From an uncultured Microbacterium sp. (GTDB lineage Bacteria > Actinomycetota > Actinomycetes > Actinomycetales > Microbacteriaceae), in NCBI GenBank assembly GCA_913774665.1, contig CAJYHN010000014.1, forward strand, positions 1 through 64,000: a DNA stretch of 64,000 bases, given 5' to 3'. Under the pieces are notes generated by a model that was not told the DNA's origin, made no database searches, and saw only the letters and a program-made list of their open reading frames with translations. Below are positions 4,682 to 19,369 of this stretch, piece after piece (position 1 is the first letter of the stretch; each line of letters starts with the position of its first letter). Made by a program: the position numbers and the translations under genes.

Positions 4682-5967
4682 GCGCCGAGCAGTACGACGC
4701 CGTCGACATCATCCGCGCCCAGCGCGACGGGCGGCCCATCACCGAGGGCGAGATCCGCTGGCTGGTCGACGCCTACACGCGCGGCTACGTGATGGACGCG
4801 CAGATGTCGGCGTTCACGATGGCGGTGCTGCTGAACGGCCTCGGCCGCGACCAGATCCGCGTGCTCACCGACGCGATGATCGCCTCGGGCGAGCGCATGG
4901 ACTTCGGCTCGCTCGGCAAGGTCACCGTCGACAAGCACTCCACCGGCGGCGTCGGAGACAAGATCACGCTGCCGCTGGCTCCGCTGGTCGCGGCGTTCGG
5001 CGTCGCCGTCCCGCAGCTCTCGGGCCGCGGTCTCGGCCACACCGGCGGAACGCTCGACAAGCTCGAGTCGATCCCCGGCTGGCGTGCGGCGCTGTCGAAC
5101 GACGAGATCATGGCGCAGCTGCGCGACGTGGGCGCGGTCATCTGCGCCGCGGGCACGGGCCTGGCCCCCGCGGACAAGAAACTGTACGCGCTGCGCGACG
5201 TGACGGGCACGGTCGAGGCCATTCCGCTGATCGCCTCGAGCATCATGTCGAAGAAGATCGCGGAGGGCACCGACTCGCTCGTGCTCGACGTGAAGTTCGG
5301 CTCCGGTGCCTTCATGCAGGACATCGACCGCGCGCGCGAGCTCGCTGAAACCATGGTGGCCCTCGGCACCGACTCCGGCGTGAACACCACGGCACTGCTC
5401 ACCGACATGAACACCCCGCTGGGCCTGGCCATCGGCAACGCCAACGAGGTGCGCGAATCGGTCGAGGTGCTCGCCGGTGGCGGCCCCGCCGACGTCGTCG
5501 AGCTCACGGTCGCCCTCGCCCGCGAGATGCTGACGCTGGCGGGCAAGCCCGACGCCGACGTCGAGGCCGCGCTGCAGGACGGCCGCGCGATGGACGTGTG
5601 GAACCGCATGATCCGCGCGCAGGACGGAGACCCGGATGCCGCCCTCCCGGCGCCCCGCGAGACGCACACCGTCGTCGCCGAGCGTTCGGGCGTCGTCTCG
5701 CGTGTCGAGGCCCTGCCCTTCGGCATCGGTGCCTGGCGCCTGGGCGCGGGTCGTGCGCGCGCCGAGGACGCCGTCGTGCACGCCGCGGGCATCGACCTGC
5801 ACGTCACCGTCGGACAGGCCGTGAGCGCCGGTCAGCCGTTGTTCACCCTGTCGGCGGACGATGAGTCGCGCTTCGAGCGTGCCCTCGACGCCGTCGCGGG
5901 TGCGCTGGAGATCGGCGACACCGCTCCTGCCGCGTCGCCGATCGTGCGCGAACGGATCACCGCGTGA
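4678..5967 (+). CDS. deoA: Thymidine phosphorylase
   Basis: Phosphorolysis of thymidine and deoxyuridine to the free base and deoxyribose-1-phosphate. The 429-residue protein carries the family signature SGRGLGHTGGTLDKLES (~119-135) and the phosphate-binding KHSTGGVGDK (~84-93), followed by the C-terminal PYNP domain. The ATG at 4678 overlaps cdd by 4 bp. A longer frame starting at 4543 lies inside cdd and is not used. The product feeds the phosphosugar mutase encoded at 19.4-21.1 kb if that enzyme works on pentoses. Confidence 0.96.
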   Translation: MSAEQYDAVDIIRAQRDGRPITEGEIRWLVDAYTRGYVMDAQMSAFTMAVLLNGLGRDQIRVLTDAMIASGERMDFGSLGKVTVDKHSTGGVGDKITLPLAPLVAAFGVAVPQLSGRGLGHTGGTLDKLESIPGWRAALSNDEIMAQLRDVGAVICAAGTGLAPADKKLYALRDVTGTVEAIPLIASSIMSKKIAEGTDSLVLDVKFGSGAFMQDIDRARELAETMVALGTDSGVNTTALLTDMNTPLGLAIGNANEVRESVEVLAGGGPADVVELTVALAREMLTLAGKPDADVEAALQDGRAMDVWNRMIRAQDGDPDAALPAPRETHTVVAERSGVVSRVEALPFGIGAWRLGAGRARAEDAVVHAAGIDLHVTVGQAVSAGQPLFTLSADDESRFERALDAVAGALEIGDTAPAASPIVRERITA

Positions 5968-7247: not shown

Positions 7248-7329
7248 GCGAAACTCCGGAGATCTGTGGCGGAGAGGCCGCTTAGGTGCCGATTCCGGTC
7301 ATGGCGGCGAGGTTTCTCAGGAGTTCGGC
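7248..7329 (-). repeat. Family A palindromic element, copy 1
   Basis: An 82-bp element bounded by GCGAAACTCC on the left and CAGGAGTTCGGC on the right (an imperfect inverted repeat with one T missing). Its internal pattern matches copies 3 and 4 only after reverse complementing, so it is inverted relative to them. It lies downstream of the nuclease gene. Confidence 0.65.
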
Positions 7330-7397
7330 ACGCGTCCGGGCTCGCGAGGGGAGGACGAGATTGGCCGTTGCGGATTGGACGGGGTCGACCGCGGCGC

Positions 7398-7479
7398 GCG
7401 AAACTCCGGAGAAATCGGCGCGCGGAGCCGACATCGGCGCCTGCGGCGGGGTGGGAGCGCGAGAAGTCAGGAGTTTCGA
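7398..7479 (-). repeat. Family A palindromic element, copy 2
   Basis: An 82-bp element with terminal repeats CGAAACTCC (7399-7407) and GGAGTTTCG (7470-7478). It has the same inverted orientation as copy 1. Its right end contains the last codons and stop of the nuclease gene, so element and gene share sequence. Confidence 0.7.
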
Positions 7480-8315
7480 CCGGGTGCGCCGTGGGTGAGG
7501 ATGCGCTCGAGCGCGGCGCGCACCCGGTCGGGGTGGTAGAGGATGTCCTCGGCGAGCAGTCGGAGCGTCGTATAGCCGCGTTCCAGTGCCGCCATGTCAC
7601 GGCGCCGGTCGTTCTTGTGCATCTGCCAGGTGCCGTGGAACCGCTCGCTGTCGCACTCGACGATGAGCCATCCGTTGATCAGGAGGTCGACGCGGCCCAC
7701 GCCGTCGATGCGGACCTGCAGCTCGACGCGACAACCGAGCGGACGCAATAACAGTCGCACGAGCGATTCGGTGCCCGCCTCGGCGCGCCGGTCCACCAGG
7801 CGACGCAGCACCTGGAAGCGGCGCGGAACCCGGGCGAACACCTCGTCGATGTCGGCCTCGCCGACCAACCCCAGGTGCCAGGCGCTATCGAGGGTGGCGA
7901 CCGCCGATCGCGGAGGTTGACAGCGGATCGCCTGGGCGAGGGCCTCCACGACGTCGACCGCGAGTCCGTCTCGCGCGGCCGATGACGCGCGCCAGTGGTA
8001 GACGACACCGCGGGGTGCGGGAGGCCGTCGACTGGCTGGAGGATCCTGCTGCACGTGACGGTCCGCCTGTCGGTGGATGAACACGCCGCGCGCGGCGAGG
8101 AGGCTGACGCAGTCGAGTCTCCCGCCGGCGCGGGCGGCTTCGACGAAGTCCTCCTGTGTGCCGGCCTCTACGAACCGCCCCTGTCGTACACGTACGAGGC
8201 TGCCGTCCGCGAGGGCACGGTCGAGTGTCCTGCGCGACCATCCGGCGGTGAGGAGCTCGCGCGTCGTCCACACTCGCTCGGGTCGCTCAGCGGGGCGGGG
8301 CGAGAGGGAGGCCAT
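7467..8315 (-). CDS. AbiEi-like winged helix / DUF559 Vsr-like nuclease protein
   Basis: A 282-residue protein of unknown role. Residues ~15-50 (from VWTTRELL to the VRVRQGRFV turn) resemble the winged-helix domain found at the N-terminus of AbiEi-type antitoxins. The C-terminal ~110 residues fit the DUF559/Vsr-like PD-(D/E)XK fold, with candidate acidic residues E183 (TESLVR), D210 (GRVDLLI), E220 and D222 (VECDSERFHG) and the basic/acidic R237-D240. The start at 8315 is fixed by a CAGGGT -10 box 6 nt upstream; the frame stays open to 8696 but that part holds repeats. No partner toxin or methylase is adjacent. It is bracketed by family A repeats on both sides. It could be a repair or homing nuclease, a defence protein or a regulator; function is not established. 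Confidence 0.75.
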   Translation of the reverse strand: MASLSPRPAERPERVWTTRELLTAGWSRRTLDRALADGSLVRVRQGRFVEAGTQEDFVEAARAGGRLDCVSLLAARGVFIHRQADRHVQQDPPASRRPPAPRGVVYHWRASSAARDGLAVDVVEALAQAIRCQPPRSAVATLDSAWHLGLVGEADIDEVFARVPRRFQVLRRLVDRRAEAGTESLVRLLLRPLGCRVELQVRIDGVGRVDLLINGWLIVECDSERFHGTWQMHKNDRRRDMAALERGYTTLRLLAEDILYHPDRVRAALERILTHGAPGRNS

Positions 8316-8321
8316 CAGCCC

Positions 8322-8327
8322 ACCCTG
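8322..8327 (-). promoter_or_regulatory. Leaderless -10 box of the family A nuclease gene
   Basis: CAGGGT on the minus strand lies 6 nt before the ATG at 8315, matching the leaderless pattern used by many genes here. Confidence 0.5.
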
Positions 8328-8391
8328 GCCGTCGCAGCCGCTCGACGGCGGCGGCGAGGGCCGCGGCTGTGGATAACGGGGCTGGGGAGGA

Positions 8392-8409
8392 CAGGTCGGG
8401 GCCGACCTG
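8392..8409. promoter_or_regulatory. Perfect 8-bp inverted repeat upstream of the nuclease gene
   Basis: CAGGTCGG, 2 nt, CCGACCTG forms a perfect palindrome about 65 bp upstream of the -10 box and 7 bp from element A3. Its symmetry fits a dimeric regulator site, possibly for the gene's own winged-helix domain; that is inference. Confidence 0.4.
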
Positions 8410-8415
8410 GCGTGT

Positions 8416-8497
8416 GCGAAACTCCTGAGTTTTCGGCGATTGCGGGATGTTGCGGGGTTTTCGGGGCGCGCAGGTGCGGGTTTTTCAGGAGTTTCGC
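8416..8497 (+). repeat. Family A palindromic element, copy 3
   Basis: An 82-bp element with perfect 12-bp terminal inverted repeats GCGAAACTCCTG (8416-8427) and CAGGAGTTTCGC (8486-8497). Inner parts (GAGTTTTCG near the left, GGGTTTTTCAGG near the right) match copy 4. It lies upstream of the nuclease gene. Confidence 0.8.
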
Positions 8498-8599
8498 TGG
8501 GGTTGAGGGTCCTTGGCCGGGGCTGCGGCCGGGGTGACCGCCCGGTCCGCCCGGTCCGGCCGGTCCGCCTCAGCCCGTCCCGGGGGCGATCCTGTGCGC

Positions 8600-8680
8600 G
8601 CGAAACTCCTGAGTTTTCGTCCGCGGCGGGCTGCTCGCGGGTTTCCGGGCATGTGCGTACGAGTTTTTCAGGAGTTTCGC
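8600..8680 (+). repeat. Family A palindromic element, copy 4
   Basis: An 81-bp element with perfect 12-bp terminal inverted repeats (8600-8611 and 8669-8680) in the same orientation as copy 3. Between copies 3 and 4 lies a short GGTCCGCCCGGTCC-like repeat stretch. The remainder of 8316-8750 shows no gene. Confidence 0.8.
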
Positions 8681-8750
8681 TCGAGCGGAGGGTCACCCGC
8701 CCCGCCCCGCCTCGCCCGCACCCCCACCCGGCCCCGGCCCCCGCCTCCGG

Positions 8751-9533
8751 CTACGGCCGCGGCAGAAAGCCCGCGAGCTGCTCCGCGATCACGCGGTCCA
8801 CCTCGGCCGGGTCGGCGGTCGGTGTGCCATCGCCGGGCTGCGGTCCGTAGGCGCCGAACGAGGCGTGCGAGGCGCCGGGGATCTCGACGAAGGTCGCACC
8901 CGGGGGGAGTTCGCCCTTGGCATCCGCGATTTTCTGCGGAGTGGACAGACCGTCCTCCGATCCCGCGAGGCTCAGCACGGGGAGTCCGGATGCCGAGAGG
9001 TCGTTCGCGCAGTACGAGGCGAACAGCACGAGGGCGTCGGCATCGGTCGCGAGCTGGCACGCGCGTACCCCGCCCAGCGAGTGCCCGCCCACCGCCCAGG
9101 TCGAGACGCCCGGGGCGAGATCGGTGAAGGTCGAGAGCGGGCGGGGGTCGAAGAACGCGAGGTTCAGCCACGGCTTCGTGATCACGATCGTCACGCCGTC
9201 GTCGACGACGGTGTCGGCGAAGGTGGCGATGTACCCCTCGGCCTCCACCTTGGCGCCCGGGATGAAGACCAGGCCCTGTCCCGTCGCCCCGGCGGTCGGT
9301 GCGAGCACGATCCCCGCGCCGTCGTCGGTGATGGTCAGCCCGGGGTTCGCTTCGGCTTCGGCGAGCGGGCCCGGTTCCGCGCCCATCACGCCGACCTGGC
9401 TGTAGATCAGGATGCCGCCGACGAGAAGGACCACGACGGCCCCCAGCCCACCGAGGAGCCAGCGCAGCCATCGCCGCCGGCGACGCGGAGCGGGGGAGGA
9501 ATCGGGGTCGGTGGAGGCGGTGCTGTCGGTCAC
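8751..9533 (-). CDS. Membrane-anchored alpha/beta hydrolase
   Basis: A 260-residue protein with an acidic N-terminus, an Arg-rich stop-transfer patch (17-24), one transmembrane helix (~25-45) and an extracytoplasmic alpha/beta-hydrolase domain. The catalytic triad is visible: nucleophile S152 in GGHSLGG, D194 in GSEDG, and H223 in GASHASFG. This is the dienelactone-hydrolase/abhydrolase_5 type; the substrate is unknown. The GTG at 9533 is preferred over a GTG at 9575 because a TACGCT -10 box sits 7 nt before it. It is monocistronic between the family A repeats and the mtl operon. Confidence 0.82.
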   Translation of the reverse strand: MTDSTASTDPDSSPAPRRRRRWLRWLLGGLGAVVVLLVGGILIYSQVGVMGAEPGPLAEAEANPGLTITDDGAGIVLAPTAGATGQGLVFIPGAKVEAEGYIATFADTVVDDGVTIVITKPWLNLAFFDPRPLSTFTDLAPGVSTWAVGGHSLGGVRACQLATDADALVLFASYCANDLSASGLPVLSLAGSEDGLSTPQKIADAKGELPPGATFVEIPGASHASFGAYGPQPGDGTPTADPAEVDRVIAEQLAGFLPRP

Positions 9534-9540
9534 GTCTTCG

Positions 9541-9546
9541 AGCGTA
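9541..9546 (-). promoter_or_regulatory. Leaderless -10 box of the hydrolase gene
   Basis: TACGCT on the minus strand is 7 nt upstream of the GTG at 9533. Confidence 0.5.
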
Positions 9547-9591
9547 TCGCCGGGCGCGCTGTGCGACCGGTTCACGCCGGACGGCGGAAAC

Positions 9592-9639
9592 CCGACACCG
9601 CCGACGGGCCGCCGGATGCGGCCGCGTCGGCGGTGTCGG
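9592..9639 (-). terminator. Terminator of the mannitol operon
   Basis: A perfect 14-bp inverted repeat (9592-9605 with 9626-9639) with a GC-rich 20-nt loop lies 5 nt past the mtlD stop. In the minus direction it is followed by GTTTCC. Confidence 0.75.
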
Positions 9640-9644
9640 GGGAG

Positions 9645-10796
9645 TCAGGCCGAGAGCGCCGCCTGGCGTGCGGCGACGATCTCGACGACGCGCGCGTGCA
9701 GCGGGTGGTCGGCGTCGAGGCCGGTCACCTCGGACGTGAACCCCTCGGCATCGGTCTCACGCAGCAGGCGCTGCAGCTCGACGGCCTGGGCGTCCTCGGC
9801 GTCCGAGAACTCGAGGGCGGCGGCCATGGCAGCGACCAGGGCGTCGACGGGCAGGCCCCGCTCCACGGCCTCGGCGGCGGGCCCGACGAACCGCTCGTGA
9901 CGCGAGAGCTTGCGCAGCGGCTGCCGGCCCACGCGCCACACGGTGTCGGGGAGGGCGTCGTTGCGGAAGCGGCGCAGGATCGTCGCGCGGTACTCGCCCT
10001 GCACCCCGGCATCCAGCTCGTGCTTCTCGACGAGCAGCGCGCTGGTCTCCTCTAGCGCAGCCTCGACCTTCGCCGCGATCTCGGGGTTCGCCAGGGCGTC
10101 CGAGATGCGCTCGATGCCCGCCTGCGCACCGAAATACGCGGTGGTGGCGTGCCCGGTGTTCACCGTGAAGAGCTTGCGCTCGATGTAGGGCTCGAGGTCG
10201 TCGACGAAGTGCGCCCCGGGGATGTGCGGGGGGTTGTCACCGAAGGGGGGCCGCTCGATCGCCCACTCGTAGAACGGCTCGACGGTGACGTCGACGCCGC
10301 CGCCGGACTGGGCCGGGACGATGCGGTCGACCGCGGTGTTCGCGAAGACCGAACGGGATGCCAAGGCATCCCAGGACTCGCCGGCGAGCTCGACCACGTG
10401 CTCGCGCAGCTGGTCGGTCGCCCCGATCGCGTTCTCGCACGCCATGATCTGCAGCGGGGGGAGCGACGGGTCGCGAAGCGCGAGACCCGCGACGATGTGC
10501 GGGGCGACGAACTTCAGGATCGTCGGCCCGACGGCGGTGGTCACCACGTCGGCGGTGGCGATCTCGTCGACGAGCGCTTCGGCATCCACCGAACTGTCGA
10601 TCGCGCGGAAGCCGGTCACCTCCGTGTCGACACCGCCCTCGCCCACCTCGTGGACGGTGTACGACGACGCCGCGTTGATCGACTCGACGAGGGCCGCCGA
10701 GACGTCGGAGAAGACGAGGTCGTACCCTCCCTCGTGCAGGAGCAGACCGACGAAGCCGCGACCGATGTTGCCGGCGCCGAAGTGGACGGCCTTCAT
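9645..10796 (-). CDS. mtlD: Mannitol-1-phosphate 5-dehydrogenase
   Basis: Oxidises mannitol-1-phosphate, the product of the mannitol PTS, to fructose-6-phosphate with NAD+. At 383 residues it has the normal length. The N-terminal Rossmann motif is GAGNIGRGF (residues 8-16). The central helical domain includes the catalytic-lysine region IERKLFTVNTGHATTAYF. The ATG overlaps the mtlF stop by 4 bp. It is the last gene of the PTS operon before its terminator. Confidence 0.96.
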   Translation of the reverse strand: MKAVHFGAGNIGRGFVGLLLHEGGYDLVFSDVSAALVESINAASSYTVHEVGEGGVDTEVTGFRAIDSSVDAEALVDEIATADVVTTAVGPTILKFVAPHIVAGLALRDPSLPPLQIMACENAIGATDQLREHVVELAGESWDALASRSVFANTAVDRIVPAQSGGGVDVTVEPFYEWAIERPPFGDNPPHIPGAHFVDDLEPYIERKLFTVNTGHATTAYFGAQAGIERISDALANPEIAAKVEAALEETSALLVEKHELDAGVQGEYRATILRRFRNDALPDTVWRVGRQPLRKLSRHERFVGPAAEAVERGLPVDALVAAMAAALEFSDAEDAQAVELQRLLRETDAEGFTSEVTGLDADHPLHARVVEIVAARQAALSA

Positions 10797-11230
10797 GCGT
10801 TGACGGAGCCCGAGAGGGCCTGGAAGAGCTCCTCAGCGGAGGAGGCGGCCTTCAGGCGCGCGACGTCGTCCTCCTCGGAGAACAGGATCGCGATCTGCGA
10901 GAGGATCTCGAGGTGCTCGTCGCCCTTGCCGGCGATGCCGATCACGAAGGTGACGGGCTCCCCGCCCCAGTCCACGCCGCCGTCGTAGCGGACGACCGAC
11001 AGGCCGGACTCGAGGATCGCCTGCTTGGTCTCGTTGGTGCCGTGGGGGATCGCGAGCTCGTTGCCCATGTACGTCGACACGGTCTCTTCGCGCGCCTGCA
11101 TGGCGGCGAAGTAGTCGGCGGTCACGGAGCCGGTGGCCTGCAGCAGGTCGGCGGCCTCTTTCATCGCCTCCTCGCGGGTGGCGCTCCCGGGGTGGATGCG
11201 GACGGATTCGATGCGGAGGACGTTCGACAT
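10793..11230 (-). CDS. mtlF: Mannitol PTS EIIA component
   Basis: A 145-residue cytoplasmic EIIA of the mannitol/fructose family. It accepts phosphate from HPr on H63 in the motif AIPHGTNE and passes it to the EIIB domain of MtlA. It is separate from EIICB here, unlike the fused EIICBA of enteric bacteria. It overlaps mtlD by 4 bp and is preceded by a 105-nt spacer with a hairpin. Confidence 0.95.
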   Translation of the reverse strand: MSNVLRIESVRIHPGSATREEAMKEAADLLQATGSVTADYFAAMQAREETVSTYMGNELAIPHGTNETKQAILESGLSVVRYDGGVDWGGEPVTFVIGIAGKGDEHLEILSQIAILFSEEDDVARLKAASSAEELFQALSGSVNA

Positions 11231-11288
11231 GGTTCTCGCCTTTCTCGTCGTGCTGTCCAGCCTCGCAAACCGCGGGCCGGACGGGAAG

Positions 11289-11325
11289 ACGCCAGGGGCC
11301 GGGCTGACGCACCGACCCCTGGCGT
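11289..11325 (-). other. Hairpin in the mtlA-mtlF spacer
   Basis: ACGCCAGGGG (11289-11298) pairs perfectly with CCCCTGGCGT (11316-11325). No T-tract follows on the minus strand, so it looks like an mRNA-stability or partial-attenuation hairpin that sets the mtlA to mtlF/mtlD ratio rather than a full terminator. Confidence 0.5.
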
Positions 11326-11335
11326 GCTAGGGGAA

Positions 11336-13000
11336 TTACTTGGCTTCGTGCTGAGCGCGCACCATCTCCACGACCTCGTCGTACTTCGGCGAGTTCATGA
11401 AGTTGTCGACCGACACGTGGAGCGAGTCGGGCGACTGCGCCTTGGCGCGATCGGTGAGCTGGTTCTGCGTGATGACCAGGTCGGCCGAGCCGTCGAGGTT
11501 CGCGATCGCCTGGTTGGTGACCGTGACGCCGTCGATGCCGGCCTTCTTGATCTTGTTGCGCAGGACGCTGGCGCCCATGGCCGAGGAGCCCATGCCGGCG
11601 TCGCAGGCGAACACGATGTTGTTCAGCTGCTTCGTCGTGACCGCTCCCGCGGCGCCGCCGAGGACGCCGTCGACGTCGCGGTCGGCCGCCTCCGTGGTGC
11701 CCGAGCCGGTGGTGCCGGCGGCGCGGGTGCGCAGGGCGCCGAGGGCGGAGGACTCCTTGCCCTTGTTGGCCGCGGTCTGGTCGATCGCGGCGGCGAAGCT
11801 GTCGCCCTCGGCCTCGGCGTCGCGCTTGCGGGAGGCCCGCAGGATGATGCCCGAGATGAGGAACGTCACCACCGCGGCGACGATCACCGAGAGGTAGACC
11901 ACGAGCACGTTCGCCACGCCACCGCCGGCGGCCGCGGCGGTGACCGCGATGATGCTGCCGGGAGCGGCCGGGAAGACCAGGCCGCCGCCGAAGATCATGT
12001 TGACCGCGACACCCGAGGCGCCACCCGCGATGAGCGCGAGGATCGTCATGGGCTTGGCGAGGGCGTAGGGGAAGTAGATCTCGTGGATGCCACCGAGGAA
12101 CTGGATCACGATGGCACCGGGGGCCGACGCCTTCGCCGCACCGACACCGAAGAAGGTGAAGGCGAGCAGCAGACCCAGGCCGGGGCCGGGGTTCGCCTCG
12201 ATGAGGAACAGGATCGACTTGCCGGTGTCGGCGGCCTGCTCGATGCCGAGCGGGGTGAACACACCGTGGTTGATGGCGTTGTTGAGGAACAGCACCTTGG
12301 CCGGCTCGACGATGATCGACAGCACCGGCAGCAGGTTGAACTGCACGAGGAACGCGACGATGCTGCCGAGAACCGCGCTGATGCCGAGGAAGACGGGACC
12401 GAAGGCGAAGAAGCCGACGATCGCGAGGATCATGCCGAGGATGCCGGCGGAGAAGTTGTTCACGAGCATCTCGAAGCCGGGGCGGATCTTGCCGTCCCAC
12501 AGCTTGTCCATCTGCTTGGTGATCCAGGCCGCGAGCGGGCCCATGATCATCGCGCCGAGGAACATCGGGATGTTGGTGCCGACGATCACGCCCATCACGG
12601 CGATGGTCGCCACGACGCCACCGCGGGCGCCGTAGACGATGCGTCCACCGGTGTTGGCGATGAGCAGGGGCAGCAGGTAGGTGATCATGACGCTGACCAG
12701 GCCGACGTAGCCCTGGTAGGTGCCGCCGTCGGCGTTCGCGGTCAGCGCGGTCGCCGCTCCCGGCCAGCCGATGGTCGCGGCGTCGCCGCCGCCGCCGATG
12801 ATCTCGGCGACCGGGGCCCAGTGCCAGCCGAACGGGCTCTTGGCACCGAAGAATCCGGCGGGGATGAAGAGCATGGTGATGAATCCCCATGCGATGAAGG
12901 CCGCGATGTTCGGCATGATCATGCCGGAGAGGAACGTGCCGAACCGCTGGACTGCGATCCGTGCCCCTCCCGGCTTCTTGGTGGGTGACGTCGTCGTCAT
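11336..13000 (-). CDS. mtlA: Mannitol PTS EIICB permease
   Basis: The membrane permease that takes up and phosphorylates mannitol. The 554-residue protein has an EIIC membrane domain (~1-345) with the substrate motif GGIHEIYFPY, a linker of ~100 residues, and a C-terminal EIIB domain (~455-554) whose phospho-cysteine lies in VFACDAGMGSSAMG. The ATG at 13000 follows AAGGAG at a good distance; the frame extends to 13189 without support. EIIA is the separate mtlF product. The upstream spacer to ptsI is only 91 nt, so co-transcription with ptsH/ptsI is likely. Confidence 0.95.
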   Translation of the reverse strand: MTTTSPTKKPGGARIAVQRFGTFLSGMIMPNIAAFIAWGFITMLFIPAGFFGAKSPFGWHWAPVAEIIGGGGDAATIGWPGAATALTANADGGTYQGYVGLVSVMITYLLPLLIANTGGRIVYGARGGVVATIAVMGVIVGTNIPMFLGAMIMGPLAAWITKQMDKLWDGKIRPGFEMLVNNFSAGILGMILAIVGFFAFGPVFLGISAVLGSIVAFLVQFNLLPVLSIIVEPAKVLFLNNAINHGVFTPLGIEQAADTGKSILFLIEANPGPGLGLLLAFTFFGVGAAKASAPGAIVIQFLGGIHEIYFPYALAKPMTILALIAGGASGVAVNMIFGGGLVFPAAPGSIIAVTAAAAGGGVANVLVVYLSVIVAAVVTFLISGIILRASRKRDAEAEGDSFAAAIDQTAANKGKESSALGALRTRAAGTTGSGTTEAADRDVDGVLGGAAGAVTTKQLNNIVFACDAGMGSSAMGASVLRNKIKKAGIDGVTVTNQAIANLDGSADLVITQNQLTDRAKAQSPDSLHVSVDNFMNSPKYDEVVEMVRAQHEAK

Positions 13001-13024
13001 TGCTGTGTCTCCTTGACTCGCTGC

Positions 13025-13087
13025 GCGGCTGGGGCCGCGGTGGGGGGTGCGGCTGGGGCCGCGGTGTCGATGGGGCGGAACCGCCCC
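13025..13087 (-). other. Hairpin-rich ptsI-mtlA spacer
   Basis: Two direct copies of an 18-bp unit (13025-13042 and 13049-13066) each fold as GCGGC-TGGG-GCCGC. A third hairpin GGGGCGG-AA-CCGCCCC lies at 13072-13087. Without T-tracts these more likely tune differential expression than stop transcription. Confidence 0.45.
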
Positions 13088-13091
13088 GGGT

Positions 13092-14777
13092 TTACGGGGT
13101 GTGGACGAGGGTGGAGGCGGCCTGGGCCGCCTCCCGGGCGGAGGCCGCGTCGTCCGCGGCCAGGGCGGCCTCGGCGATGCGGCGGGCATCGTCGAGAGTG
13201 TGGGTGAGAAGGGTCGCGCGCACGTCGGCGAGGGCCGTGGGGGCCATCGACAGCGTGGTGGCGCCGAGTCCGACGAGCACGACGGCGAGCATCGGGTCGG
13301 CGGCGGCTTCGCCGCAGATTCCGACGGGCTTGCCGTGCGTGCGGCCCGCCGCGCCGACCTCGCGGATGAGGCGGAGGACGGCCGGATGCCACGGGTCCTG
13401 GAACGACGCGACGGAGCCGAGCAGGCGGTCCGCGGCGAGCGTGTACTGCGTCAGATCGTTCGTGCCGATCGAGGCGAAGTCGGCGATCTCGAGGATCCGG
13501 TCGGCCAGGAGGGCCGAGGAGGGGACCTCGACCATGACGCCGGTCGTCTTCAGGCCGTAATCCTTCGCGAGGGCGGTGAAGTACCGGGTCTCTTCCACGG
13601 TCGAGACCATGGGTGCCATGACCCACAGGTCGGCGGGGCCCGCCTCGGACGCCCGGGTCGCGGCATCCGCTTCGGCGAGGGCCGTCAGCTGCTCGCGCAG
13701 GATGTCCTCGCTGGCGCGGAGGGCGCGCAGGCCGCGAAGGCCCAGCGCCGGGTTCTCTTCGTGCGCGTCGTTGAGGAACGGCAGGGGCTTGTCGGCACCG
13801 GCGTCGAGCACGCGCACGACGACCTTCTTGCCGGGGAAGGCGCTGAGCAGTTCGATGTAGGCCGCGCGCTGCTCCTCGACGGTGGGAGCCGAGCTGGAGC
13901 TGAGGAACAGGAACTCGGTGCGGAAAAGGCCCACACCCTCCGCGCCGAGCTCGACGGCCTCGGCGGCTCCGCCGGGCTTGCCGAGGTTGGCGAGCAGGGG
14001 CACCTTCGTCCCGTCGGCGAGGGCGCCGTCGGTGATGGGGGCGGATGCCGCGGCCTTGCGGGCATCGGCACGGTTGCGGGCGCGCTCGAGATCGTCGTCG
14101 CTCGGGTCGACGGTGACGACGCCGGCGGCGGCATCGACGATGACGGACTGTCCGTCGGCGAGGTCCTTCGCACCGGCGGCGCCCACGACCGCGACGATCG
14201 ACTTCTCGCGGGCCAGGATCGCGGTGTGCGAGGTGGGGCCGCCCTCGGTGGTGACCAGGGCCAGCACCTTGTCGAGGTCGAGCAGGGCGGTGTCAGCGGG
14301 GGCGAGGTCCTTCGCGACCAGCACGAAGGGGTGACCGGGGTCGGGGATGCCGGGGGCCGCCACGCCGCGGAGGCGGGCGATCACGCGCTGGGCGACGTCG
14401 TCGAGGTCGGCCGCGCGCTCGCCGAGATAGCCGCCGAGGGCCACGAGCTGCTCGCGGAACGAGGCGAAGGCGTCGTGCACGGCGAACTCGCCGGTCTTGC
14501 CGGCGGCCAGGCGGGAGTCGACCTCGGCCTCGAGCGTGGGGTCCTCGGCGATCATCGCCTGGGCCTCGAGCACGTCGCGGGCGGCGCCGCCGGCCTGCGC
14601 GCCGCGGGCTTCGAGCTCGCGGGCGACGGCGCCGATGGCCTCGCGCACGCGGGCCGTCTCGTCGTCGACGCTCAGTTCGCTCTTCGCGTCCTTCGGGGCG
14701 GGCAGGGGCTCGGCCATGCGCGCGATGGGTCCCTGGGCGACGCCCAGGCCGATTCCGACTCCACGGAGTTCCGTCAT
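13092..14777 (-). CDS. ptsI: PTS Enzyme I (PEP-protein phosphotransferase)
   Basis: The general PTS enzyme that takes phosphate from phosphoenolpyruvate and gives it to HPr. It has 561 residues. The phospho-histidine is H184 in GGPTSHTAIL. The PEP-binding C-terminal barrel carries GLFRTEFLF and, near the end, the GICGEAA motif with the catalytic cysteine. It is encoded inside the mannitol operon, between ptsH and mtlA, with only 15 nt to ptsH. Confidence 0.96.
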   Translation of the reverse strand: MTELRGVGIGLGVAQGPIARMAEPLPAPKDAKSELSVDDETARVREAIGAVARELEARGAQAGGAARDVLEAQAMIAEDPTLEAEVDSRLAAGKTGEFAVHDAFASFREQLVALGGYLGERAADLDDVAQRVIARLRGVAAPGIPDPGHPFVLVAKDLAPADTALLDLDKVLALVTTEGGPTSHTAILAREKSIVAVVGAAGAKDLADGQSVIVDAAAGVVTVDPSDDDLERARNRADARKAAASAPITDGALADGTKVPLLANLGKPGGAAEAVELGAEGVGLFRTEFLFLSSSSAPTVEEQRAAYIELLSAFPGKKVVVRVLDAGADKPLPFLNDAHEENPALGLRGLRALRASEDILREQLTALAEADAATRASEAGPADLWVMAPMVSTVEETRYFTALAKDYGLKTTGVMVEVPSSALLADRILEIADFASIGTNDLTQYTLAADRLLGSVASFQDPWHPAVLRLIREVGAAGRTHGKPVGICGEAAADPMLAVVLVGLGATTLSMAPTALADVRATLLTHTLDDARRIAEAALAADDAASAREAAQAASTLVHTP

Positions 14778-14792
14778 GGTGCTGTGTTTCCT

Positions 14793-15068
14793 TTACTCGG
14801 CGTCGTGGTCGGTGGTCAGGAGCTCCGCGAGGCGCTCCAGCGTCGCTTCGGCGTTGTCGCCGTCGGCGGTGAGGGTCACATAGTCGCCCTGCTCGAGTCC
14901 GAGCGCGATGATCCCGAGGATGCTGGCGGCGTTGATCGGCTTGCCGGCGTCCTTGGCGAGGGTCACGGGGATGCCGGCGTCCTTCGCCGCCTGGGCGAAG
15001 AGCTTCGCGGGGCGGGCGTGCAGGCCGTGCGACGATCCGATGCGGACGGTGCGGGTCAAGTGGGGCAT
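14793..15068 (-). CDS. ptsH: PTS phosphocarrier protein HPr
   Basis: A 91-residue HPr relaying phosphate from Enzyme I to EIIA proteins. The active histidine is H17 in HGLHARPA. A serine (S49, NAASILG) sits where Firmicutes carry the regulatory Ser46, but no HPr kinase gene is visible in this window and actinobacteria generally lack one. It lies between an EIIB gene and ptsI in one operon. Confidence 0.95.
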   Translation of the reverse strand: MPHLTRTVRIGSSHGLHARPAKLFAQAAKDAGIPVTLAKDAGKPINAASILGIIALGLEQGDYVTLTADGDNAEATLERLAELLTTDHDAE

Positions 15069-15086
15069 GGTGTCCTCTCCGTCGAT

Positions 15087-15413
15087 TCAGATCGTGTCCG
15101 CGGTCTGACGCGAACGCAGGGCGTCCTCGACCAGCGCGAGGGTTCGGGTGCCGCTCTGGTCGGCGAAGACGTCGTCGGGCAGCAGGACGACGGTGACGCC
15201 CCGCGGGGCGGCCTCGAGGCGGATGCTCTCGAGCTCGGGTGCCAGGTGCGGACCCACGAGCACGAGGTCGGCGGCGTCGAGGTCGATCGGGAGAGAGCGC
15301 GAGGTTCCCGCCGAGGCGGAGTAGTCCAGGCCCTTCTCGTGCGCAGCACGACGGACGCGTTGCGCGACGAACGTGCTCGACGCACCCGCTCCACACACCA
15401 CGAGGATCCTCAT
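15087..15413 (-). CDS. Stand-alone PTS EIIB-like protein
   Basis: A 108-residue protein with the EIIB phospho-loop VCGAGASSTF (C7 is the likely phospho-cysteine), closest in pattern to lactose/cellobiose-type EIIB. It is the first gene of the ptsH-ptsI-mtlA-mtlF-mtlD unit. MtlA already has its own EIIB domain, so this copy may serve another permease or signal to the regulator MtlR, whose EIIB-like domain and PRDs are phosphorylated by PTS proteins in related systems. ATG at 15413 is supported by an AAAGG ribosome site. Confidence 0.85.
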   Translation of the reverse strand: MRILVVCGAGASSTFVAQRVRRAAHEKGLDYSASAGTSRSLPIDLDAADLVLVGPHLAPELESIRLEAAPRGVTVVLLPDDVFADQSGTRTLALVEDALRSRQTADTI

Positions 15414-15435
15414 CGACCGGCCTTTCTTCCTCTCG

Positions 15436-15465
15436 ATTGTCCGCACCTGTCTCACAGCGGACAAC
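15436..15465. promoter_or_regulatory. Divergent mtl promoter with overlapping palindrome
   Basis: TTGTCCGC (15437-15444), 12 nt, GCGGACAA (15457-15464) is a perfect 8-bp inverted repeat. Read on the minus strand it gives TTGTCC, a 17-nt spacer and GACAAT, i.e. -35 and -10 boxes for the PTS operon about 23 nt before its first ATG. Read on the plus strand it gives TTGTCC, 17 nt and GACAAC toward mtlR. The same symmetric site would therefore hold both core promoters and is a candidate operator of MtlR. Confidence 0.6.
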
Positions 15466-15602
15466 CAGGTTCGTTTCCCACCCCCCGGAACGCGGATTCT
15501 GCAGCCGCCTCCTGCGCGCGTCGTCCCGAGCCGCGCCCGGTGCGGACGGGCGTGAAAGGATGGACGGAACGCTGCCAACCGGGGCAGTGCGGAGGACGGA
15601 TC

Positions 15603-17531
15603 GTGACGACCAAGGCTCGCCAAGACCGCCTGCTGGCCCTGTTGCTGCGGGACGGGGAGTGGTCCACCGCGGCGTCCCTCGCCGACGCCCTCGGGGTCAC
15701 CCCGCGCAGTATCCGCTCCTATGTCACGGCGATCAACGCCCGTGTCCCCGGCGGAGCCGCCATCGAGTCGGGACCCCTCGGCTACCGCGCCGGGACCGAC
15801 GCCGCCGCAGCCCTTCGGGCCTTGACCGGAACGGATGCCGGCACCCCCCGCGACCGCCTGCACACCCTCGTCCGGCGGCTTCTGGACTCCGCCGACGGCA
15901 TCGACGTCTTCGACACGGCGGACGCCCTGCACGTGAGCGCCGCGACCCTCGAGGCGGATCTGTCACGCGTGCGGGGACTGCTCGGCGGAACCGAGCTGAC
16001 CCTCGAGCGCTCGGCATCCACCGCCCGTCTGCGTGGAACAGAGGTCGCCCAACGCCGACTGCTGTCCAAGCTCGCGCACGACGAGATGGACGCCGGACTC
16101 TTCGACCTCGATGCCCTGCGGCGCACGCTCGGCGAGCAGTCAGTGGGCGCCCGGGCGTTCGGGCCGTTCAAAGCCGAGCTCGTCGCCGAGCTCGGCGCCC
16201 TCGGCTATTACGTCAACGAGATCGGCATCGGCGACGTGGTGATGCACATCGCGATCGCCGCCGACCGCACCACGCGCGATCGGGCCCTCGGCTCCCCGGG
16301 AGGGGATTCGTCGGATGCCGCGGCCGCCGTCGTCGCGCTGCTCGACCGGCTGACGGTCAAGCACATCGGCGTGCAGCTCGGCTCGGGCGACCTGCGGCAC
16401 CTCGCGACCCTCGTGCTGACCCGCATCGTCGCCCCCGGCTCCCCGGCCGGCGACGACGTGCGCTCGCGCCTCGACCCGGCCGTCGAGGTGGCCGTCCGGC
16501 GGGTCGTCGAGAACGCGGCATCCGAGTTCCTCGTCGACATCGCCCACGACGACTTCATCCTGCGCCTCGCGCTGCACGTGCAGAACCTGCTGCACCGCTC
16601 CCGCGAGCAGGCGTGGTCGCGCAACCCGCTCACGCGGTCGCTGAAGTCGACGTACCCGATGATCTTCGAGGTCGCGGTCTACATCGCCAAGGGGCTGCAG
16701 GACGGCCTCGGCATCCCGATCCTGGACGACGAGATCGCTTACATCGCGATGCACGTCGGAGGCCGCCTCGAACGCAGCCGCCGCGCCGATCAACTGCTGA
16801 CGGCGACGATCGTGTGCCCCGGCTACTACGAGCTGCACGAACTTCTGCGTTCGAGCGTCGACCGCTCGCTCGGTCAGGCGATCGAGGTCGTGGGCGTCGA
16901 GACGCGCATCGACCCGGCGTGGGACTCGATCGAGACCGACCTGGTGCTGACGACCATCGACCCGCCGCGGCCGGGCGACCGGTTCGTGCGGATCCAGCCG
17001 TTCCTCACGGACGCCGACGTCGAGCGCGTGCAGGCCGCTGCCGGGCGTATCCGCCGCGGGCGGCGTCTGGCGCGCCTGCGGGCCGAGCTCGAACGGTACT
17101 TCGCGCCCGAGGCTTTCGTGCGGGGGCTGGATGCCGCCGACGGCGAGGCCGGCGTCATCCGACGCCTCGGCGGGATGCTCGTGGAACAGAGCGTGATCGA
17201 CGACGCCTACGTGGCTCGGGCCGTGGAGCGCGAGGCCATCTCGTCCACCGCTTTCACCGACGCGCTCGCCGTGCCCCACGCGATGGGCATGACCGCGACC
17301 CAGACCCGCATCGCCATCGGCATCGCCGACCCCTCGATCGCGTGGGGCGAGGGACGCGTGCAGGTCGTGGCGCTCGTGGCCTTCAGCGAGACCGACCGCG
17401 AGGCCTTCCAGACGGTGTTCGAGCAGTTCGTCGAGGTGTTCAGCGAGCGCGACAGCGTGCAGCGCATCGTGCGGCGGGCGGTGTCGTTCCCCGCGTTCCT
17501 CGATGAGCTGGTCGCGGTGATCGACGGCTGA
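15603..17531 (+). CDS. mtlR: MtlR-type PRD-containing transcriptional activator
   Basis: A 642-residue regulator of the mannitol operon. Domains in order: HTH_11-type winged helix (~1-60), a second Mga-like HTH (~80-155), PRD1 (~185-290, histidines H215 and H266), PRD2 (~295-395, H325 and H383), an EIIB-like domain with C405 (TIVCPGYYE), and an EIIA domain with H559 (AVPHAMG). PTS phosphorylation of these sites controls activity in family members. GTG at 15603 is chosen because GGAGG lies 7 nt upstream; the frame is open far upstream but overlaps the divergent genes. It is transcribed away from the PTS operon it presumably activates. Nothing recognisable follows it before the family B repeats. 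Confidence 0.92.
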   Translation: MTTKARQDRLLALLLRDGEWSTAASLADALGVTPRSIRSYVTAINARVPGGAAIESGPLGYRAGTDAAAALRALTGTDAGTPRDRLHTLVRRLLDSADGIDVFDTADALHVSAATLEADLSRVRGLLGGTELTLERSASTARLRGTEVAQRRLLSKLAHDEMDAGLFDLDALRRTLGEQSVGARAFGPFKAELVAELGALGYYVNEIGIGDVVMHIAIAADRTTRDRALGSPGGDSSDAAAAVVALLDRLTVKHIGVQLGSGDLRHLATLVLTRIVAPGSPAGDDVRSRLDPAVEVAVRRVVENAASEFLVDIAHDDFILRLALHVQNLLHRSREQAWSRNPLTRSLKSTYPMIFEVAVYIAKGLQDGLGIPILDDEIAYIAMHVGGRLERSRRADQLLTATIVCPGYYELHELLRSSVDRSLGQAIEVVGVETRIDPAWDSIETDLVLTTIDPPRPGDRFVRIQPFLTDADVERVQAAAGRIRRGRRLARLRAELERYFAPEAFVRGLDAADGEAGVIRRLGGMLVEQSVIDDAYVARAVEREAISSTAFTDALAVPHAMGMTATQTRIAIGIADPSIAWGEGRVQVVALVAFSETDREAFQTVFEQFVEVFSERDSVQRIVRRAVSFPAFLDELVAVIDG

Positions 17532-17582
17532 CGCGGGGCGTCCTCGCCTGGCGCAGCGTGTCCGGGGTCTTCGCAGCCGCCC

Positions 17583-17826
17583 GGGGCGTGGTTGGTGGCC
17601 CCGGGGCGTGGTTCGTGGCCCTGGGCGGGGCGGGTCGGCGTTTGTGAGTGGTTTTGGGGCGTGGTTGGTGGCCCTGGGGGTGGCGGACCGGCGTTCTCAG
17701 CGGTTCTGGGGCGTGGTTGGTGGCCGTGGGCGCGGCGGGTCGGCCTTCTGGGCGGTTCTGGGGCGTGGTTGGTGGCCCCGGGGCGTGGTTCGTGGCCCTG
17801 GGGCCGGGTTGGTCGCCCTGAGGGGC
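17583..17826 (+). repeat. Family B repeat array, left flank
   Basis: Copies of GGGGCGTGGTTGGTGGCC begin at 17583, 17603, 17656, 17708, 17760 and 17780, plus a decayed copy near 17801. The spacing is 20, 53, 52, 52 and 20 bp, so the core is a ~52-bp tandem unit with an internal 20-bp half-unit. The interval 17532-17989 shows no gene. The array lies just downstream of the second nuclease gene. Confidence 0.8.
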
Positions 17827-17989
17827 TGCCCCGACGCCGGGGGGTGACGGAGCGATGTCGCGCCGCGGCGGACAGCTTGGCGACGTCTCCGTGAGGTCGC
17901 ACGCTGGGGCGGCTGCGCGTTCCCGGCCGCGGCCGACTCGAGATTCGTCGCTGAACCGCGGACTGGGCGTGCCCGTCACGCGGCGGAAT

Positions 17990-18955
17990 TCATGAACGCG
18001 GTCCGGGGCGTACGCCGAAGGCAGCAAGACGGCGGCCGAGAGCGGCAGCGTCGCTGATGTGCTCCCATCCCCATCGCACGACGTTGCGCCCGGTGGTGCC
18101 GCGAATCCAGTCCTCCCGCCGCTTCTCTGCTTCGACGATCTCGCGAGACGAGCGTCCGGATGCGTCTGCGAGCTCGCGGTACTTCACCTTGCCGTCGAAT
18201 TCTCCCCATGCATCCGCTTCATCGAGGCCGAAGTCGAGCCAGTAGGCCTTGCCCCGCGGCCCCTCGACGGCAACCTGCAGTGACGGCGAGGCGAAGCCCA
18301 GCTCGTCGAGTCGGATTCGGCTGATGCTCTCTCCCGGGCGCTGCGCCCGTCCGTCCGCGAACCCGAGAACGCGGCGTCCGCGGCCGCGCCCGCGCGGAGA
18401 GACATCGAGAGCGTCGAGCGCGGAGGCGCGAAACGTTTCAGCCTTGACCAGGTCGTAGGAACCGGGCGATGTCCATGCGATGGCGCGCAGAGCGGCGTCG
18501 GCCGCGGAGACGGCTGATTCACGCGATTCCCATCTCGCCACATCGGCGATGGTCCGAGTGAGGGACGTACACGCGATCCCGCTGATCTCGGTGATCTCAT
18601 CGTCGCTGAGGCTCCCGCGGTGCCGAACGACATCTGAAGCAGCGCCCGGTCGATTCTCGGGCGAGTAGACGTGGAGTCGCCCATCATCTGCGATCAGCGG
18701 GAGTCCATGGAGGGCCGCAGCAGTGCGACCCGCGAAGATCGGGCGCGAGCTGGCAAGGGCAGCGTAGGAGCGTGCTCGAACGACTACCTGCTCCTCGATC
18801 TTGAGATCCTGCACTTCAGAGGCGCGCGCGAACACACCGCGCCGCACAGCGATGAGTTGGCCCGCCTTCAGCGCGCGAGCGATCTGGCGGGAGTCCCATC
18901 CCAGATCCTCGAGGTCGCCACGACGACGCAGAGGAATGACGAATCCATTCGACAT
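17990..18955 (-). CDS. AbiEi-like winged helix / Vsr-like nuclease protein (second)
   Basis: A 321-residue protein with the same two-part layout as the one at 7.5-8.3 kb but little sequence identity by eye. Residues ~10-45 (DLEDLGWDSRQIARALK to VRRGVF) look like the AbiEi-type winged helix. The middle ~60-190 resembles the AbiEi-like central region. The C-terminus carries E209 (GESISRIRL), D241 (YWLDFGL), E252 and K256 (GEFDGKVKY) and R280/D282, a good PD-(D/E)XK pattern. The start at 18955 follows CACGAT by 6 nt. No toxin, methylase or transposase is adjacent. It is bracketed by family B repeats in inverted orientation. Role unknown. Confidence 0.72.
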   Translation of the reverse strand: MSNGFVIPLRRRGDLEDLGWDSRQIARALKAGQLIAVRRGVFARASEVQDLKIEEQVVVRARSYAALASSRPIFAGRTAAALHGLPLIADDGRLHVYSPENRPGAASDVVRHRGSLSDDEITEISGIACTSLTRTIADVARWESRESAVSAADAALRAIAWTSPGSYDLVKAETFRASALDALDVSPRGRGRGRRVLGFADGRAQRPGESISRIRLDELGFASPSLQVAVEGPRGKAYWLDFGLDEADAWGEFDGKVKYRELADASGRSSREIVEAEKRREDWIRGTTGRNVVRWGWEHISDAAALGRRLAAFGVRPGPRS

Positions 18956-18961
18956 GGCTTG

Positions 18962-18967
18962 ATCGTG
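18962..18967 (-). promoter_or_regulatory. Leaderless -10 box of the family B nuclease gene
   Basis: CACGAT on the minus strand is 6 nt before the ATG at 18955. It decides this start over an open frame reaching 19120. Confidence 0.45.
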
Positions 18968-19120
18968 GCGGCCGTAAGCGCCCTTCCACAGGCGGGAACG
19001 CCCCGACGGGGGACAGAGGGCGCAAAGCCGTCGCTGGGGAGGAACGGTGCACGCCATGGAGGCCTTCTCCCAAGGGGCGCGCGGCCGCGGGGCCCGGGGC
19101 GGGTTGACCTGCTCATCCAT

Positions 19121-19172
19121 GGCCCCGGGGCCACAGGTCGCGCCCCGGGGCCACGAACGGCGCCCCGAACCG
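19121..19172 (-). repeat. Family B repeat unit, right flank copy 1
   Basis: A 52-bp unit that, read on the minus strand, starts CGGTTCGGGGCG and contains GTTCGTGGCCCCGGGGCG, as in the left array. Its orientation is opposite to the left array. Confidence 0.7.
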
Positions 19173-19197
19173 GGGGCGAGCCGCCCCCCTTAGGGGT

Positions 19198-19245
19198 CGA
19201 CACGTCTCACCGCGACGCCACCGACACGTCTCACCGCGATGCCAC
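19198..19245 (+). repeat. 24-bp tandem repeat
   Basis: Two tandem copies (19198-19221 and 19222-19245) starting CGACACGTCTCACCGCGA differ at one base; a third partial copy follows as CGGCACGTC. They lie between the two right-flank family B units. No gene is seen in 18956-19382. Confidence 0.75.
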
Positions 19246-19317
19246 CGGCACGTCGGCAGCCCGTGTCTCGATAATGCTCGCGGCCCCCACCCGGAGGTGC
19301 ATTGGGTCCTCGTTGAC

Positions 19318-19369
19318 GGCCCCGGGGCCATCATTCACGCCCCGGGGCCACGGTTCCCGCCCCAAACCG
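19318..19369 (-). repeat. Family B repeat unit, right flank copy 2
   Basis: A 52-bp unit that on the minus strand starts CGGTTTGGGGCG and contains GTGGCCCCGGGGCGTG, matching the left array at 17755-17800 in inverse orientation. It ends 13 bp before the stop of the phosphosugar mutase gene. Confidence 0.7.

Follow-up and report, generated by a model that had tools for sequence, protein, structure and literature searches.

A Microbacterium AbiEi–EDxHD-type protein and its private paired repeats: a candidate nuclease with a resident population of target sites

Gene 1, gene 2 and their repeats

A 64,000-nucleotide stretch of DNA from an uncultured Microbacterium sp. (GenBank assembly GCA_913774665.1, contig CAJYHN010000014.1, positions 1 to 64,000), referred to here in its full length as the window, contains two genes ~10 kb apart, gene 1 and gene 2, each surrounded by a repeat family of its own, repeat A and repeat B. 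On the basis of sequence comparison, we favor with moderate confidence the interpretation that gene 1 encodes a sequence-specific nuclease that has paired target sites of its own, resident as a population in the genome, and that works in the manner of RAYT/REPIN systems without being a member of them. RAYT/REPIN is the best-known example in bacteria of a nuclease that coexists with copies of its own repeats dispersed in the genome. The interpretation is carried by the private inverted units found beside members of the protein family, the covariation of arm sequence with the nuclease, and the copies of the same arms dispersed through genomes.

Gene 1 (7467..8315, minus strand; 282 aa) is flanked by eight repeat A arms forming four head-to-head units, two per side. 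A unit consists of GCGAAACTCCTGA followed by its inverted copy 68-69 bp on, with arm-start distances of 69, 69, 69 and 68 bp in the four units. Downstream of the gene, the unit at 7248..7329 (arms 7248-7260 plus, 7317-7329 minus) has 1 and 2 mismatches in its arms, and that at 7398..7479 (arms 7398-7410 plus, 7467-7479 minus) has 1 mismatch in each, the right arm overlapping the gene-1 stop. The upstream unit at 8416..8497 (arms 8416-8428 plus, 8485-8497 minus) and the one further upstream at 8600..8680 (arms 8600-8612 plus, 8668-8680 minus) have exact arms. Eight of the ten repeat A matches with up to 2 mismatches in the window are these arms, and repeat A occurs at 37 sites in its own genome vs 1 for a reversed-pattern control.

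Gene 2 (17990..18955, minus strand; 321 aa) is bracketed by repeat B in tandem rather than head-to-head order, plus-strand copies on the left and minus-strand copies on the right. Seven plus-strand copies of GGGGCGTGGTTNGTGGCC, in steps of 20 and 52-53, form an array downstream of the gene at 17583..17817, and four minus-strand copies lie upstream at 19129..19363 (19129, 19149, 19326 and 19346). The count allows up to 4 mismatches, which is permissive: in total, 11 plus and 11 minus matches then occur in the window. The repeat is real, with 38 sites in its own genome vs 1 for the reversed-pattern control. A tRNA-Arg called by ARAGORN at 17542-17631 lies inside repeat B and has no Rfam match, and is probably an artefact. 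Clusters of repeat A and repeat B also lie ~3-12 kb apart in four places of the same genome (contigs C8, C10, C13 and C14).

Flanking units across the protein family

Homologues of gene 1 are present in 144 of 149 Microbacterium genomes at E <= 1e-10. A sampling of the order at the stricter E <= 1e-15 found them in 143 of 297 genomes and 46 of 94 genera, Microbacterium included. Flanks were surveyed in 61 loci, comprising the window and 20-kb regions around 60 of the better-scoring gene-1 matches. An upstream inverted unit with at least 13/14 arm bases matched accompanies 40 of the 61 homologues vs 9 of 441 control ORFs from the same regions, 11 of 197 when controls are restricted to intergenic segments, and 3 of 610 with shuffled target sequences. 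A downstream unit was found in 24 of the 61, and units on both flanks in 13, vs 0 of 428 controls. Related tests agree: at least three 12-mers are common to both flanks in 35/62 homologues vs 27/409 control genes, and one unit family occupies both flanks in 26/65 vs 10/346 controls. At the same threshold, 45 of 80 named loci, a set overlapping the 60 regions, have an upstream unit. Thirty gene-2 homologues were put to the same kind of test, giving units upstream in 12, downstream in 9 and on both sides in 7, vs 8, 10 and 0 of 428 controls; some members of this family have head-to-head pairs ~56-58 bp apart and others tandem arrays. A preliminary description of this DNA had proposed a nuclease with cognate repeats private to its clade and had expected an excess of inverted flanking repeats over random genes; the excess is present and the enrichment over controls extends to both families.

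The usual companion of a family member is a private unit, most often upstream and in many cases downstream as well, made up of two inverted arms of 13-17 bp at a fixed spacing. The pattern continues beyond the genus: among the 30 best loci of a wider search, 17 lay outside Microbacterium, and inspection by eye found the same arm on both flanks in six of these (L407, L408, L411, L419, L420 and L424). The gene-2 homologue L208 in genome G031 has 41-bp tandem repeats on both sides, with 11 copies of one 11-mer, that are not head-to-head. The gene-1 orthologue L128 (G119:C1, ~168.8-169.6 kb) carries an in-frame TGA and has no unit above threshold on either flank; from this single case, nuclease and units possibly decay together.

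Covariation of arms and nuclease

Arm sequences are diverse across loci (GCGAAACTCCTGA, GTGCACAACGTCGG, CGTACCGTATTCAGTC and others), and over the 40 of 61 loci with arms of at least 13/14, divergence in the arms is correlated with divergence in the protein (r 0.34, p 2e-4). Most of the genes sit at two syntenic positions, accounting for 26 and 20 of the 61 regions, for which partial Mantel tests were made with 24/26 and 17/20 loci (arms of at least 12/14). With neighbor distance removed, arms still correlate with the nuclease (partial r 0.315 and 0.614, p 3e-4 each); with the nuclease removed, arms and neighbors show no correlation (0.077, p 0.16, and -0.017, p 0.56). Arm sequence tracks the nuclease and not the syntenic neighbors, bearing out the expectation of the preliminary description that repeat and protein divergence would match.

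Dispersal of arms in Microbacterium genomes

In most of the cases tried, though not in all, knowing the arm at a gene flank was enough to predict further copies scattered through that genome, and three families were tested for dispersal into other intergenic regions, each showing it. Of the 149 genomes, 130 lack the exact A arm altogether; the four genomes with a gene 1 at least 80% identical to that of the window (an identity measured over a partial gene in one of them) contain 20, 8, 28 and 13 copies. Of five genomes in which the gene bears GCACAACGTCGG, three hold 20, 18 and 16 copies of it, and elsewhere there are at most 6 per genome, except for 12 in G011. The arm CGTACCGTATTCAG, read from the G018 gene flank alone, has 11 copies in that genome (4 of them at the gene) and 0 in the other 148.

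Dispersed units are intergenic in 55 of 58 cases, as judged with a simple gene caller of our own. With two locus entries called inside genes left out, convergent genes flank 17 of 43 loci vs 49 of 300 gaps (p 8e-4), and divergent genes 7 of 43 loci vs 83 of 300 gaps; the convergent enrichment is modest, since convergent gaps make up 30% of the background by bases. One intergenic region, between rbfA and an HhH-GPD glycosylase gene (L257 ~5500-5940; L250; L383), contains units in genomes G000 and G016 and a different arm in G118, and may be either a hotspot or the site of a conserved function.

Unit architecture

The arms of a unit are nearly invariant and the interiors near random, with a mean pairwise identity of 0.36 vs 0.32 for shuffles; the few near-identical interior pairs come from orthologous or neighboring units. 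At locus L390, neighboring units have common interiors that point to local duplication of units. Arms also look better kept than the interior in most of 18 orthologous-unit comparisons, a comparison that is ascertained, the units having been found by their arms, and is not used here as proof.

Spacing is narrowly distributed within families. Head-to-head pairs of the A family within 200 bp fall at 67-69 (39 pairs) and 78-80 (3), with one overlapping pair at 6; a second family has spacings of 69-71 in 20 of 20 units, and a third of 64, 76 (four), 77 and 86. Shifts of 10-12 bp amount to about one helical turn and suggest a pair of proteins bound along the same face of duplex DNA. A reading of the units as hairpins was rejected: left and right arms show no compensatory changes, with 1 of 76 positions at p<0.01 over 41 and 20 units, the chance level. 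Of 42 A-family units, 31 could be classified by the three bases inside each arm, and 25 of these are A-rich at one arm and T-rich at the other (p 9e-4), a polarity by which a longer stem would be broken.

Domain organization of the two proteins

The protein of gene 1 comprises an AbiEi-like DNA-binding module (residues ~15-175) and a putative Vsr/EDxHD-type nuclease domain (~180-278). Its Pfam matches, AbiEi_4 (E 1.5e-4) and the MTES_1575 REase (E 8.5e-8), are both under the Pfam cut-off; within the family, MTES_1575 is matched at E <= 0.01 by 37 of 37 aligned members and the DUF559 model by 33 of 37. The structure model (pLDDT 90) predicts the AbiEi antitoxin fold (6y8q) for the N-terminal two thirds and, for the C-terminal third, a fold common to Vsr and the EDxHD homing endonuclease I-Bth0305I. 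Residues E183, D210, H227 and D236 are invariant in the alignment of 37 members, from which 8 of the 45 rows tried were left out, one of these named as having a stop; the assignment of these residues to the EDxHD motif is our own, by order and fold. The start codon is inferred and ambiguous, with the ORF open to 8696.

Gene 2, whose start codon is likewise inferred and ambiguous, encodes a protein whose distant homology to gene 1 emerges from comparing profiles (hhalign probability 97.6, E 3e-12), with an AbiEi_4 N-terminus (E 1.8e-4) and a conserved E..D..ExDGxxKY C-terminus in which E209, D241, E252, D254 and K258 are invariant across 18 family members. A scan of these 18 gave no Pfam nuclease match, and a structure predicted from the single gene 2 sequence was discarded (pLDDT 38). 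The Vsr-like nuclease that the preliminary description placed at both loci is borne out by predicted fold for gene 1 only. AbiEi models of the PADLOC library match both proteins (gene 1 E 2.1e-5, gene 2 E 3.2e-14), and an NCBIfam scan gave a single weak match, far under its cut-off.

The neighbors of gene 1 in the window encode an adenosine deaminase and an alpha/beta hydrolase, with homologous neighbors across the syntenic position termed locus I. No toxin gene (nucleotidyltransferase) lies beside gene 1 in the window, the only locus scanned for one. A codon-usage gene caller trained on other Microbacterium genes called gene 1 only partly and missed gene 2, and the codon usage of both seems atypical.

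Proposed mechanism and alternative explanations

In the mechanism we propose, the AbiEi part would bind each arm, and the upstream unit may serve as an autoregulatory operator by analogy with AbiE. Two protomers at the two arms could lie on one face of the duplex, with their nuclease domains meeting between the arms, an arrangement modeled on I-Bth0305I, which forms a dimer on a target nearly 60 bp long. A cut or nick between the arms might then lead to local duplication, deletion or recombination. Over time, arm pairs would be seeded and renewed elsewhere, and nuclease-plus-unit cassettes would replace one another at a fixed chromosomal locus, giving population-level behavior like that of RAYT/REPIN from a homing-type nuclease with an apparently duplex target. 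Among the hypotheses of the preliminary description, repeats serving as binding sites of the protein fit best; a homing-like cassette is consistent with the fold of the nuclease and with alleles that appear to have been exchanged at a fixed locus.

Several observations weigh against this interpretation. An upstream unit is below threshold in 21 of the 61 homologues, and gene 2 fails the head-to-head test, with at best 11/14 on both flanks. The partial correlation alone is no proof of recognition, as gene-adjacent arms would be swapped with the gene by linkage, although such linkage cannot explain the dispersed copies. Genomes G094 and G067 have GCACAACGTCGG at the gene and few copies of it (6 and 3), near the background of 0-6. 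Exact A arms number 33 in G103 and 17 in G016, whose gene-1 orthologues are 55-58% identical and have other arms, and G011 has 12 exact dispersed GCACAACGTCGG arms; none of the homologues found in these three genomes lies beside a dispersed arm. In G092 and G009, the best gene-1 match is at only 34 and 33%, and A arms number 5 and 3. A nuclease predicted to lie between G011 units at C11:204.1-205.3 kb failed to appear, the gene there looking like an NAD-dependent epimerase, and six other G011 regions gave no match to either window protein at E <= 1e-5. In G103, the gene-1 neighbors are 87-97% identical to those of the window and the nuclease only 57%, from which we infer that the allele was replaced and its old sites left behind. 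A mobile unit spreading its repeats, also raised in the preliminary description, is suggested by the data, and no clean empty site for one was found at the four loci alignable with G083, a 95%-identity relative. Of five own-genome unit loci compared with G083, one had no match, two a variant form, and two lacked the unit with no sharp boundary, the intergenic DNA being too indel-rich.

Other explanations account for parts of these data. A plain transcription factor, which would act through its AbiEi-like part on dispersed operators to control host genes and its own, with the nuclease domain secondary, is unlikely yet deserves consideration: AbiEi proteins autoregulate through promoter inverted repeats according to PMC7319586, the upstream unit is the commonest finding (40 upstream and 24 downstream, of 61), and the rbfA/HhH-GPD spot is occupied by a local arm in G000 and G016 and another in G118. 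Regulation of this kind fits poorly with the placement of dispersed units, enriched between convergent genes (17/43 vs 49/300) and not divergent ones (7/43 vs 83/300), with the invariance of the nuclease residues, with the wholesale change of arms between close relatives, and with the dispersed arms that seem to remain when an allele has been replaced. We regard as improbable a defense or self/non-self module in which the nuclease attacks incoming DNA with, or without, the arm pair and itself diversifies in an arms race. Fast allelic turnover at a fixed locus with an intact active site would suit such a module, as would the PADLOC AbiEi matches of both genes, but its likely target is present in many copies within the host's own genome, and a modification gene is missing from the seven window neighbors scanned, all of them genes of metabolism or transport, the window being the only locus scanned for one.

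It is very improbable that a RAYT at another place in the genome drives the repeats, as ordinary REPINs, and that the nuclease gene is a bystander. The unit geometry matches that given for REPINs in PMC3116915 (16-mers in inverted orientation, 71 bp apart, around a spacer of lower conservation), and GTAG is contained in two arms outside the genus (L409 and L411); however, private arms bracket the nuclease at locus after locus and track its sequence, GTAG/CTAC lies within 6 bases of the arm in 1 of 40 loci vs 9% of random stretches, and no compensatory changes emerged. Chance or ascertainment in GC-rich intergenic DNA, which the preliminary description had itself thought an unlikely cause of the pairing, can be regarded as refuted. 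At the loosest setting, 12-mers are common to the flanks of 135 of 409 control genes, but stricter settings separate the two sets (at least three common 12-mers in 35/62 vs 27/409, with the other unit tests in agreement), and the genome-wide counts with reversed-pattern controls are independent of the flanks.

A broader proposition, which we hold tentatively, is that AbiEi-EDxHD nucleases may be widespread one-gene systems that make, keep and renew genome-wide paired target sites, constituting a second, independent invention of the RAYT/REPIN style with a duplex-cutting homing-type nuclease, and that rival alleles displace each other at fixed loci and leave orphan site populations. If true, an unrelated second enzyme would show that the RAYT/REPIN way of life evolved more than once, and a purpose would be suggested for a common protein group. 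Each unit-bearing gene brings its own predicted target, and cutting specificity may be readable from sequence. Among the matches listed in a search of titles and abstracts of open-licence papers, preprints excluded, none joined DUF559, MTES_1575 or AbiEi nucleases with cognate repeats, a result that does not establish absence from print.

Comparison with known systems

The closest resemblance is to RAYT/REPIN, in which, according to PMC3116915, GI REPIN doublets are tied to a RAYT gene. In both cases a nuclease gene is flanked by its own inverted-doublet repeats, which are also dispersed in extragenic DNA and combine conserved arms with a variable spacer; the arm spacing is 71 bp in GI doublets and 68-70 and 76 bp here. 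The Microbacterium proteins differ in having an AbiEi module and a predicted Vsr/EDxHD fold (Pfam AbiEi_4, MTES_1575 and DUF559) and not a Y1 HUH domain. Their arms do not feature the GTAG tag and lack compensatory changes, their spacing shifts by about a helical turn, and their copies number in the tens and not the hundreds.

Gene 1 is also likened to known proteins by its individual domains. With EDxHD homing endonucleases such as I-Bth0305I it is predicted to share the catalytic fold and the E, D, H and D residues; however, its nuclease is fused to an AbiEi module, and the gene is free-standing between intact units, with no intron or insertion destroying its own target. The likeness to AbiE type IV toxin-antitoxin systems lies in the modeled N-terminal AbiEi fold and the inverted repeats upstream, whereas gene 1 has no adjacent toxin in the window, an added nuclease domain and genome-dispersed sites. 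The repair endonuclease Vsr nicks T:G mismatches next to a methyltransferase site. Vsr and the Caulobacter DUF559 protein VsrA, the latter linked to cytosine methylation in PMC12907096, resemble the gene-1 family in their nuclease fold and in the DUF559 matches noted above, but the link here is to private arm pairs.

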